In this document: positions 2,578-6,522 of the stretch, piece after piece | Position numbering within the stretch: position 1 is the first letter of the stretch | How the letters are laid out: each line of letters starts with the position of its first letter | Assembly: GCA_003221515.1 (NCBI GenBank) | Contig: QHSI01000108.1 | Location: 1-46,965 of the forward strand | Source of the DNA: Candidatus Rokuibacteriota bacterium | GTDB taxonomy: Bacteria; Methylomirabilota; Methylomirabilia; Rokubacteriales; CSP1-6 | Length of the DNA stretch: 46,965 nt | Direction: 5' to 3' | Notes under the pieces: model-generated | Database searches by the model: none | What the model was told of the DNA's origin: nothing | What the model saw: the letters and a program-made list of their open reading frames with translations, nothing else | Program-made: the position numbers and the translations under genes

Positions 2578-3780
2578 TCAGCCCCGGGCCAGCAGGCGCC
2601 GGTCCAGGCGGGCGCGGCGGTAGGAGAACGCCTCCCGCACGCGTGAGGGCACGCCGGCATCTTCGGCGAGGCCCAGCGCGTCGTCGACGATCGCGCGCGC
2701 CGTGGCGAAATCGCGCCGGCGATGCTCGTGGAACTTGGCCAGCTCCTCCCACGGGCGCGGGTCGAACACCGCGTGGCGCGCGGCCGCCTCCCACAGGGCG
2801 CGCGCGGTGTCCCACCGGGCGCGGCGCTTCTCCCACCACGCCAGGCGCATGCGCACCACCTGGGCCGGCTCGCCGGCGAGCCCCGCGCCGAGGGCTGCGT
2901 GGTAGCACTCGAGCGAGCGCTCGAGATCGACCGGCTCCCAGAGCCGGCCGAGACCGGCCAGCTCCGCGGCGCCCAGCTCCGCCGGAGCGGCAAGCGCGCC
3001 GCCGAACCAGCCGAGCAGTCCCACCAGCGTGAGGATGTCGTCGCGGTTGTGCGCGAGCACGCGGGCCAGCGGCGCGGCCCGACGCGAGCGCAGAAAATCG
3101 AAGTAGAGCGCCGGGATCAGGCTGCCGGCGACGTCGTCCTCACGCTCCACCCCGATCACTTCGCGCTCCAGCGTCGCCAATCGACAATCGGCGAAGCTCG
3201 CCGTCCACATCCGCCGCGACGGCCGCAGGAGATCCAGATGGGGTAGGTCGGCCGGCCAGCGCCGGCGCGCCAGGATGAAGCGCGTCTCGAGCAGTGGCAG
3301 GTCGAAGGCCGTTCCGTTGAAGGTCACGACGCCGTTCGCCCGCTCGATGAGCGGCCATAGCGCCGCCAGCAGCGCTGGCTCGTCGTCGAAATCGCGCATG
3401 AAGTGCTGGGTCAGGACCAGGCGGTCGTCCTCGAGCCATGCGGCCCCCACCAGAAACGCGTAGGTGCCGGTACCGCCGGCGAGGCCGGTCGTCTCCGCGT
3501 CGAGGAACAGGAGCTGCCGCACGTCCTCGAGGGGCGCCTCCAGCCGCGCCAGCAGGCTGAGGAGATTCAGCGGCGCACTGAGAGCGCCCGCGAGCGGTTG
3601 GTGGCCGTGCCGGTGCGAGAGCGGAAACTCGCGTCGCACCACCACGAGCTGCCCCTCACCGGTGTCGATCAGCTCGCCGCCGAGCACCTCCTCGACCGGC
3701 GCCGGGGCGGCACGCGGGAGCCGGCGCGTCTCGATGCGCCGGATGACGCGGCGGAGATCGTCAAGCGTCTGGTGAGCCAC
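2578..3780 (-). CDS. MrfB/YprB-like RNase H-fold exonuclease with TPR tail
   Basis: A 400-residue protein. Residues about 88-250 form an RNase H-like DEDD exonuclease fold, with the first acidic motif at FLDAETTGL (Asp94, Glu96), a central FNGTAFDLPLLETRF block, and a later HNRDDILTLVGLL block that carries the last acidic residues. Residues about 280-400 are alpha-helical repeats resembling TPRs. Bacillus subtilis YprB (MrfB) has this architecture and works with the helicase YprA (MrfA) in an excision pathway for mitomycin C damage. The gene here starts six bases after the stop of the YprA-like helicase, so the two form an operon as in Bacillus. The helicase pairing makes the assignment firm at family level; activity is inferred. 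Confidence 0.85.
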   Translation of the reverse strand: MAHQTLDDLRRVIRRIETRRLPRAAPAPVEEVLGGELIDTGEGQLVVVRREFPLSHRHGHQPLAGALSAPLNLLSLLARLEAPLEDVRQLLFLDAETTGLAGGTGTYAFLVGAAWLEDDRLVLTQHFMRDFDDEPALLAALWPLIERANGVVTFNGTAFDLPLLETRFILARRRWPADLPHLDLLRPSRRMWTASFADCRLATLEREVIGVEREDDVAGSLIPALYFDFLRSRRAAPLARVLAHNRDDILTLVGLLGWFGGALAAPAELGAAELAGLGRLWEPVDLERSLECYHAALGAGLAGEPAQVVRMRLAWWEKRRARWDTARALWEAAARHAVFDPRPWEELAKFHEHRRRDFATARAIVDDALGLAEDAGVPSRVREAFSYRRARLDRRLLARG

Positions 3781-3786
3781 GGGATC

Positions 3787-6132
3787 TCAGTCGGTGAGGG
3801 CGCGCAGCAGCGCTCGCGCCGTCGCCTTGGCCCGGCGCCCGACCTCGTTGACGGGGCCGACGCACGAGGGACAGCCGACTTGGCAAGCGCACGATTCGAG
3901 GGTGTCGAGCCCGCGACGCAGCAGGTCGGGCAGGATCTCGAAGACGTGCTCGGCGAGGCCGATGCCGCCGGCGTGGGAGTCGTAGAGATAGATCGTGGGG
4001 TTGAAGTGCTCTGCCTCCATCAGCCGCCGCTTGGCCGAATCGCGCGTCGCCGCGACGCCACTGGTCACGGGCGTCGTGTCGCCGAGCCAGGAGCCGAGGT
4101 CGCGGATGTCGCACAGGAGGAAGATCGGCGCCAGGTGGTGGAGCAGGTAGGTCACCGCGCGCAGGCCGTCGATCAGCTCCTCGCGCGAAGGGCCGACCCG
4201 CGCCAGCACCTCGGGCGTGACGGTGATCCAGGCGGCCGTGGTCTGCTTCTCCTGTTGCGGGAGCTCGACCTCGCCCGAGCCCACGTTCTCGAGCGTGCCC
4301 ATCTTGATCTTCTTGAACCCGACCACTTTCTCGGCGACCAGCACCTCGCCCTGCTCGGCCAGATACGCGGGCTGCGAGGCCTCGGTCAGGCGCTGGACGA
4401 TCCAGACGCCCTTGGCGCTGATCGCGTCGGTGAAGTAGTCCACCGCAACGCGCTTGACGTAGGCGACCTTCTCCTCGTCCTCGCGGAAGTGGAGCTCCTG
4501 CACCTCGAACGGCTCGCTCTCGACCAGATAGATCGCCTTGGGATAGATCGTGGCGAACGCGCTCCCCCAGTCGACCTCGGCGATGATCGAGCGCCGCTTC
4601 GTTTGCTTCTCGTCGCGCGCCGTGGTGTCGATGACGACGAAGTTGTCGGTGGTGACGGTGCGCAGCGACGTGTGGTCGGCCGGATAGGTCTCGGCCGACC
4701 AGTGCCAGTTGCGCCCGGTGTGGTGCAATACGCCCTCGTCCTCGAGCGCGGCCAGGAAGCGCCGCACGTCGAGGTCACCGAACCGCTCGCTGTCGCCGAC
4801 CGGCAGCTCGAACGCGGCGCACTTGAGATGGCTGACCAGGATGAACGGGTTGTCCGGGTTCACCCGCGCGTGCTCGGGTGGGGTGCCGAAGAGGTACTCG
4901 GGATGGGTGATCATGAACTGGTCGAGCGGCGCGCTCGTCGCCACGAAGACGGCCGCCGACGAGCCGCTGCGGCGACCGGCGCGGCCGGCCTGCTGCCAGA
5001 GCGACGCGATGGCGCCCGGATAGCCCGCCAGCACCGCGACGTCGAGATGGCCGATGTCGACGCCGAGCTCGAGGGCATTGGTGGAGACGACGCCGAGCAC
5101 TTCGCCCTCGCGCAACCCCTTCTCGACCGCCCGGCGGCGCGTCGGCAAATAGCCGCCGCGATACCCGCGCACGATGCCGCTGTCGCCGGTCTTGTCGGCG
5201 ACGCCGCCCTTGATCGCCGTCAACAAGACCTCGGTCGCGAGCCGGCTCTGGGCGAAGACGATCGTCGCGATCTTCTGGCGGAGAAAGCGGATCGCGAGCT
5301 TCGCCGCTTCGCCCAGATAGGGCGCGCGGATTCCGAGCTCGGGATTGACCACCGGCGGGTTGTAACAGACGAAGATCTTGTCGCCCGTCGGGGCGCCGCT
5401 CTCCGTGATCTCCTCGACCTGCTCCCCGGTGAGCCGCCGGGCCAGCTCCCCCGGGTTCGCGATCGTCGCCGAGGCCATGATGAACTGCGGCGCCGAGCCG
5501 TAGTGCCGGCAGATACGCCGCAGGCGCCGCAGCACGTTGGCCAGGTGGGACCCGAAGACACCCCGGTACGCGTGGAGCTCGTCGATCACGACGTAGCGAA
5601 GGTTCTGGAAGAGCGTGGCCCACTTCGTGTGGTGCGGCAGGATCCCGGAGTGGAGCATGTCGGGATTCGTGAGGACGAGGTTCGCGCGGGCGCGAACGGC
5701 GCGCCGCGCGTCCTGGGGCGTGTCGCCATCGTAGGTGAACATGCGCATCTCGGGGAGCTGCCGGGCGAGCTCCTCAAGCTCGGCCAGCTGATCCTGCGCG
5801 AGCGCCTTCGTCGGGAACAGGTACAGCACGCGCGCGTCGGGCTGGTGCACGAGGGCCTGCAGGGCGGGCAAGTTGTAGCAGAGGGTCTTGCCCGAGGCGG
5901 TCGGGGTCACGATCACGACGTGCTGGCCCTTCTGGATCAGCTCCCACGCGCGCGCCTGGTGCGAGTAGAGCTCCTCGATCCCCCGGGCGCGGAGCGCCTC
6001 ACCGATGCGTGGATCGAGCGAGCCGGGAAACGGGACGAGCACGGGGGAACGGGGGGGGAAATGACGCGTCGCCGTGATGCACGGTCCCGTCGACGGCGAG
6101 GTGAGCAGATCGTCGAGGATCCCACCGAGCAT
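3787..6132 (-). CDS. MrfA/YprA-like DEAD/DEAH-box helicase with C-terminal DUF1998 cysteine cluster
   Basis: A 781-residue superfamily 2 helicase. Walker A is TPTASGKT (residues 76-83) and the DExH motif is DELH (184-187). SATIANP is motif III, and the second RecA domain holds STNALELGVDIGHLD and QQAGRAGRR (motif VI). The C terminus has a DUF1998 domain ending in four cysteines (Cys748, 750, 754, 757), the likely metal site described for MrfA. In Bacillus subtilis MrfA and MrfB repair mitomycin C lesions independently of UvrABC. This gene heads the minus-strand group helicase - nuclease - membrane protein. The start MLGGILDDLL is the first ATG of the frame. The upstream neighbour on the same strand is the predicted selenoprotein, which ends 42 bases before this start. 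Confidence 0.9.
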   Translation of the reverse strand: MLGGILDDLLTSPSTGPCITATRHFPPRSPVLVPFPGSLDPRIGEALRARGIEELYSHQARAWELIQKGQHVVIVTPTASGKTLCYNLPALQALVHQPDARVLYLFPTKALAQDQLAELEELARQLPEMRMFTYDGDTPQDARRAVRARANLVLTNPDMLHSGILPHHTKWATLFQNLRYVVIDELHAYRGVFGSHLANVLRRLRRICRHYGSAPQFIMASATIANPGELARRLTGEQVEEITESGAPTGDKIFVCYNPPVVNPELGIRAPYLGEAAKLAIRFLRQKIATIVFAQSRLATEVLLTAIKGGVADKTGDSGIVRGYRGGYLPTRRRAVEKGLREGEVLGVVSTNALELGVDIGHLDVAVLAGYPGAIASLWQQAGRAGRRSGSSAAVFVATSAPLDQFMITHPEYLFGTPPEHARVNPDNPFILVSHLKCAAFELPVGDSERFGDLDVRRFLAALEDEGVLHHTGRNWHWSAETYPADHTSLRTVTTDNFVVIDTTARDEKQTKRRSIIAEVDWGSAFATIYPKAIYLVESEPFEVQELHFREDEEKVAYVKRVAVDYFTDAISAKGVWIVQRLTEASQPAYLAEQGEVLVAEKVVGFKKIKMGTLENVGSGEVELPQQEKQTTAAWITVTPEVLARVGPSREELIDGLRAVTYLLHHLAPIFLLCDIRDLGSWLGDTTPVTSGVAATRDSAKRRLMEAEHFNPTIYLYDSHAGGIGLAEHVFEILPDLLRRGLDTLESCACQVGCPSCVGPVNEVGRRAKATARALLRALTD

Positions 6133-6174: not shown

Positions 6175-6522
6175 CTACTTCAGAATCTGTTCGTAGGCCT
6201 CCTCGTTGAACCCGACCAGGAGGGTGCGCCCGACCCGAAGGGTGGGCGCCCGGAGACCGCCGGTCGGGCCCAGCAGGAGCGCCAGCAGCTCACCCTTCCC
6301 GGGCCGCGACGTCTTGAGGTCGACGTGGACCGCCTTCTTGCCCTTGGCGACGTAGATCTCGTCGACACCGCGGGCCACGGCCAGCGCCGCCTCGCCGACG
6401 ATCGGGGATTTCCGCGTGTCGACCTGCTCGGCGACACCAATCCTCTTTCGCGCAAGGAACTCTTGCGCGCGCGCGCAGGAGGTTCAGCCCTTCCGGTGAT
6501 AGCTCCAGTCGACTCGCGCCAT
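6175..6522 (-). CDS. ArsC/Spx-like thioredoxin-fold selenoprotein (in-frame TGA read as Sec13)
   Basis: Two abutting pieces in one frame make a complete 115-residue protein if the TGA at 6486-6484 is decoded as selenocysteine. The order is MARVDWSYHRKG, Sec13, then TSC and a full ArsC/Spx-like domain. The active site becomes U13-T-S-C16, replacing the usual redox CxxC. The cis-proline strand is RAPTLRVG (Pro93), followed by LLVGFNEEAYEQIL, typical of this fold. Without recoding, the remainder would start at an internal GTG and lose the redox site. A hairpin directly follows the TGA (see 6442-6483). Reductase or redox-regulator activity is inferred; arsenate need not be the substrate. An alternative in-frame start at 6540 would add six residues. 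No clear ribosome binding site is seen. Confidence 0.82.
6442..6483 (-). promoter_or_regulatory. Predicted bacterial SECIS hairpin after the Sec codon
   Basis: Immediately 3' of the TGA the mRNA can fold into an 8-bp perfect upper stem, CGCGCAAG with CUUGCGCG (6469-6462 and 6456-6449), closing the five-base loop AGUUC. A lower CCUC/GAGG stem lies at 6482-6479 and 6445-6442. The loop begins 23 bases after the TGA and has G as its second base, in line with the published description of bacterial SECIS elements as a short-range stem-loop with an early loop guanosine. It would recruit SelB with Sec-tRNA; selB and selC are not in this window. Confidence 0.75.

Follow-up and report, generated by a model that had tools for sequence, protein, structure and literature searches.

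Comparative sequence evidence for an ArsC/Spx-fold selenoprotein gene in a Rokubacteria genome

Gene organization and predicted product

The window analyzed in this study is a stretch of 46,965 nucleotides from the genome of a soil bacterium of the Rokubacteria, which is available as a draft assembly of 5.1 Mb in 191 contigs. When positions 6522-6175 of the minus strand are read with TGA as selenocysteine (Sec), a single unbroken protein of 115 amino acids is obtained, followed by a TAG stop codon (product sequence beginning MARVDWSYHRKGUTSCARAQEFLARK...LRAPTLRVGRTLLVGFNEEAYEQILK). The TGA falls on the redox position of the motif U13-T-S-C16. This reading confirms the complete 115-residue protein with U-T-S-C that a first-pass annotation of this DNA had proposed. 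Without readthrough, the list of open reading frames contains just a 67-amino-acid remnant (6175-6378), which starts from a downstream GTG and is missing the active site, as that annotation had expected of a standard gene caller. Default gene calling thus cuts a gene that is confirmed here, at the sequence level, as Sec-decoded down to a piece without its active site. The features of the locus are compiled in Table 1.

Table 1. Features at the selenoprotein locus and its neighborhood (positions refer to the window)
Feature	Position	Strand	Evidence
Predicted selenoprotein gene, ArsC/Spx-fold (seleno)protein, NF041106 family	6175..6522	-	NF041106 137.6 bits; Pfam ArsC 26.1 bits; AlphaFold2 mean pLDDT 93.1
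In-frame UGA read as selenocysteine, Sec13	6484..6486	-	Same-site TGA in 35/35 over-cut-off Methylomirabilota genomes; Cys in seven Planctomycete homologues
Cys16 of UTSC, the predicted resolving residue	6475..6477	-	Invariant in 39/39 aligned homologues
SECIS hairpin, 8-bp stem 6469-6462 / 6456-6449, apical loop AGUUC 6461-6457	6449..6469	-	Folding; conserved and covarying in 37 sequences
MrfA-type helicase gene, beginning 42 bp past the stop of the selenoprotein gene (context only)	3787..6132	-	Pfam DEAD and MrfA Zn-binding domain; tblastn in 14 loci
MrfB-like exonuclease gene of the RNase H fold, following in the same orientation (context only)	2578..3780	-	PF13482

The product is matched over its full length by the NCBIfam model NF041106 (ArsC_rel_Se_1, 'ArsC family (seleno)protein'; cut-off 85 bits), and the UxxC position that holds Sec or Cys in this family carries Sec. 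The threshold of Pfam ArsC (PF03960; 24 bits) is just exceeded.

Selenocysteine machinery of the genome

All four genes selA, selB, selC, and selD were found in the source genome, the first three of which had been named beforehand as a check on the selenoprotein assignment. The tRNA-Sec gene selC (69.8 bits) has the anticodon UCA and is followed on the same contig by selA (567 bits), which overlaps the adjacent selB (359 bits). The selD gene (345 bits; locus L067 on G000 C150) itself has an in-frame TGA in the motif CAGU, then a strong hairpin, and judging from these features it is itself Sec-encoding, a second predicted selenoprotein of this genome.

SECIS hairpin downstream of the TGA

A hairpin with a folding energy of -13.8 kcal/mol lies 3′ of the TGA, as anticipated. 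The eight pairs and the five-base loop of the first-pass annotation were correct, whereas its distance of 23 bases after the TGA fits the start of the loop (22 nt; 6461-6457) and not that of the stem (14 nt; 6469). Bacterial SECIS elements have been defined by a loop of 3-9 nt, a stem of 4-16 bp, a G at loop position 1 or 2, a spacing of 16-37 nt, and a minimum free energy ≤ -7.5 (PMC13188914). With its loop of 5, stem of 8, loop sequence AGUUC, spacing of 22, and the energy given above, the hairpin passes all four published criteria, as do those of 32 of 33 homologues. Since 33% of random codon positions in the GC-rich window also satisfy these rules (2.0% if a stem of at least 8 bp is demanded), the hairpin taken alone is weak evidence, and its strength was rejected as a stand-alone argument. 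Nine other TGA-split open reading frames of the window combine a UxxC-type motif with a SECIS-like fold; none reaches a stem of 8 bp, and they were set aside because on visual inspection they resemble low-complexity shadow frames.

The comparison of homologues is more informative. At two synonymous sites of the stem, rare codons are retained, namely the Leu codon CTT (3.4% of Leu) in 32/33 and the Gln codon CAA (15% of Gln) in 30/33 homologues, a fixation explained by the stem forcing the codon choice. Among 37 sequences, the loop-closing pair is A-U in 19, G-C in 15, and unpaired in three, thereby tying an E/G change at codon 21 to the wobble base of codon 22 (Fisher p 1e-6, relatedness ignored). 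In Polyangium, an inner stem pair is changed on both sides from A-U to G-C. For the helix as a whole, three of five measures (percent paired, double-change cells, and covariation score) were reached by none of 500 shuffles, again with relatedness ignored, while pairs with two-sided change (123/500) and further pair types (500/500) did not exceed the shuffles. Sliding the partner strand lowered every helix measure except further pair types. The window gene differs from most relatives in having A-C, and so no pair, at the loop closure, which results in the 5-nt loop. Where the rules alone prove little, the fixed rare codons, the covarying loop closure, and the two-sided change in Polyangium argue for a SECIS element and, together with the conservation of the TGA, are decisive. 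For a SECIS that lies within GC-rich coding sequence, comparative support of such clarity, from rare codons at synonymous sites and a loop closure that covaries, is unusual.

Distribution of Sec and Cys forms

Conservation was surveyed in 119 genomes comprising that of the window and its relatives, and family members were counted above the NF041106 cut-off. They occur in 35 of the 119 genomes, all of them Methylomirabilota, and each copy has exactly one stop, a TGA at the Sec position, never another stop codon. This conservation decides in favor of the earlier proposal of a selenoprotein with an in-frame TGA at its catalytic position. Protein identity is 42-92% on both sides of the codon. TGA was likewise present in all 48 over-cut-off matches of a Myxococcota sample and in 55 of 65 matches of a Planctomycete sample, the other ten being stop-free; in the seven of these that were read, the aligned codon is TGC or TGT, so that the Cys homologues sought as a check do exist. 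The TGA also occurs in isolate genomes of Polyangium, which argues against an assembly error.

The TGA forms are associated with selB, which was detected in 53 of 54 TGA-carrying versus 2 of 9 Cys-only Planctomycete genomes (Fisher p 5e-7, relatedness ignored) and in all nine further TGA-carrying genomes checked. Of the 35 carriers in Methylomirabilota, three gave no full selB (G051, G091, and G033, which has a fragment at the end of a contig), and neither did one Planctomycete TGA carrier (G635), plausibly because these draft genomes are incomplete.

In a tree of 107 rows, which is based on few columns, has several long branches and is rooted for drawing only, the Sec/Cys labels need five changes. 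Within its NF041106 part, seven Cys forms, all from Planctomycetes, are scattered among Sec forms, which suggests that Cys was derived from Sec at least in part, for a sample taken with a model that is built around the Sec family and may miss more distant Cys relatives. Sec is thus the majority state across three phyla and the Cys forms sit in genomes mostly without selB, which makes the family well suited for asking what a redox protein of the ArsC fold gains from selenium.

As a separate observation, one family gene copy (L089, on G003 C502) is frame-disrupted and retains both the TGA and the hairpin.

Further TGA-bearing ArsC-type groups

In Methylomirabilota relatives, a second group of loci (L071-L081, L083-L085, and L088) is marked by the motif UP(T/A/G/S)C, whose U is an in-frame TGA, and by SECIS-type hairpins of its own, such as GCGAGGGAGUUUCUCUCGC. 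It forms its own clade in the 107-row tree (94/86). The two members scanned (L072 and L077) are below every NCBIfam cut-off (57.6 and 50.9 versus 85 for NF041106), and the group may therefore represent an unnamed selenoprotein subfamily. A third group (L082, L086, and L087) consists of ArsC/Spx-like proteins with a TGA in U-TSC, an LLRRPL motif, and a SECIS-like hairpin in each; L082 passes TIGR01617 (89.8 versus 75.05). From Myxococcota, three FYGR(A/I)UTGC proteins with TGA (L116, L117, and L118) were found below the NF041106 cut-off, with an 8-bp hairpin around a GUU loop.

Discussion

With the recoded gene, the SECIS element, the full sel machinery, the Cys/Sec exchange, and the fold each documented at the sequence level, we consider it very likely that the locus is a functional bacterial selenoprotein gene, whose UGA is decoded via SelB and the hairpin and whose product is a single-domain selenol/thiol oxidoreductase of the ArsC/Spx fold. 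None of the findings that the first-pass annotation had listed as speaking against a selenoprotein, such as a source genome lacking selB and selC, came up, and all of its proposed checks that could be run turned out positive. In the proposed mechanism, SelB with Sec-tRNA(Sec) would bind the hairpin just 3′ of the UGA and Sec would be inserted at residue 13. Sec13 would then act as the nucleophile on an oxidized substrate (a disulfide, a peroxide or similar), Cys16 would resolve the adduct as a selenenylsulfide (Se-S), and a thioredoxin- or glutaredoxin-type system would presumably reduce the latter. The oxidoreductase function itself is inferred.

The AlphaFold2 model, calculated with 39 homologues, has a pTM of 0.87 in addition to the high pLDDT. 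Its nearest solved protein is Spx, both by sequence (1z3e, E 5.9e-8) and by fold (6gho, Spx-YjbH; best Foldseek hit against the PDB with E 1.5e-3 and TM 0.57), although the fold scores are weak (TM 0.50-0.57, E > 0.001) and gave little guidance beyond naming Spx as nearest. The window protein might accordingly be an Spx-like redox regulator that binds the RNA polymerase alpha-CTD, with UxxC as the selenium counterpart of the CxxC switch. The motif position is common to both, with C10-T-S-C13 of Spx aligning to U13-T-S-C16, and most of the aligned rows have K or R at residue 60, which matches R60 of Spx. A true Spx role is nevertheless unlikely, because the scores stay below the cut-off of every Spx model (20.6 versus 123 and 20.1 versus 152) and Ala occupies the place of R92 in 39 of 39 homologues. 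In Spx, this Arg stands beside cis-Pro93 and is involved in the redox-dependent change (PMC2801614). Furthermore, the column near the RNA polymerase contact G52 is variable without a conserved equivalent, and Spx is best known from low-GC Gram-positives (PMC3831629).

A selenium-dependent arsenate reductase would agree with membership in the ArsC fold family (Pfam PF03960) and with the name 'arsenate reductase-like' used in reviews (PMC9312934, PMC13188914), but we regard it as quite unlikely. The model TIGR00014 (arsC) was not among the matches up to E=1, and no ars gene was present among the neighbors examined. The Arg preceding the cis-Pro, which we take to be R94 in R773 ArsC, is absent, the residue before the cis-Pro being Ala in all 39 homologues as aligned through Spx. 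This Ala and the unmatched models thus disfavor both roles, so that the 'ArsC/Spx-like' of the earlier description holds for kinship in sequence and fold, with neither function supported.

The neighborhood offers another candidate role. Within the UxSC subclade, mrfA starts about 44-46 bp past the end of the selenoprotein coding region at 14 loci, that of the window among them, and the neighboring genes have the MrfA Zn-binding and RNase H domains. The selenoprotein could therefore serve the downstream DNA-repair pair MrfA/MrfB as a redox partner, for instance one that senses or reduces a redox-active agent damaging to DNA. The linkage was, however, not found in the other Methylomirabilota subclade or at the loci examined from Myxococcota, Planctomycetes, and Acidobacteria. 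Being confined to one subclade, it may be just a local operon and is not conclusive as a guide to function, and we hold such a partnership to be very unlikely. A more far-reaching proposal would unite the ArsC-type selenoproteins of Methylomirabilota and Myxococcota in a superfamily with Sec as the ancestral state, Cys arising after loss of selB, at least one clade above no curated cut-off (UPTC), and the UxSC-subclade gene as a selenium-dependent partner of MrfAB; taken jointly, these assumptions are improbable.

Apart from decoding as Sec, two readings of the codon itself have to be weighed. Readthrough of UGA independent of selenium, via a suppressor tRNA or a reassigned code, would suit a frame that stays open whichever amino acid TGA encodes, but it is extremely unlikely: UGA is a normal stop that ends six of the eight clear genes of the window, so that the code is not reassigned globally; stop-free homologues have Cys at the aligned position, the downstream hairpin covaries, and the TGA forms track selB. 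That the gene is a decaying pseudogene, its TGA being an ordinary stop or a sequencing error, would be conceivable for a window from a draft assembly and with a relative (G003) that does have a frame-disrupted copy. This reading has practically no probability left and is, on the sequences compared, already refuted by recurrence of the TGA across phyla (all over-cut-off relatives and three other phyla, isolate genomes included) between conserved flanks.

Comparison with known selenoproteins

The Sec-decoded gene does not belong to a new family, since NF041106 matches it and ArsC-like UxxC selenoproteins are in published lists, as the first-pass annotation had suspected. From NF041106, with the same UxxC motif and length, it shows no difference of substance; it is another member, from Rokubacteria, and the picture of known selenoprotein kinds is unchanged. 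A 2026 review lists this family as 'Arsenate reductase-like protein', a UxxC selenoprotein, and reports a Methylomirabilota metagenome-assembled genome predicted to have 63 selenoproteins (PMC13188914). An ArsC-like UxxC selenoprotein is also listed in a further review (PMC9312934), and the Global Ocean Sampling survey described Arsenate reductase 2 (cd03032), a UxxC selenoprotein (PMC2398784) with the ArsC fold and UxxC motif of the window gene. Glutaredoxin-linked ArsC (TIGR00014) shares the Pfam ArsC fold family, the window protein being without its basic residue next to the cis-Pro. Spx of B. subtilis (1z3e; 6gho with YjbH) has the same fold, in which the window gene has Sec in place of Cys10 and Ala in place of R92. 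If cd03032 is taken to be the Spx-like branch, the third TGA-bearing group of the relatives, with its LLRRPL motif, appears to resemble it more than the window gene does.
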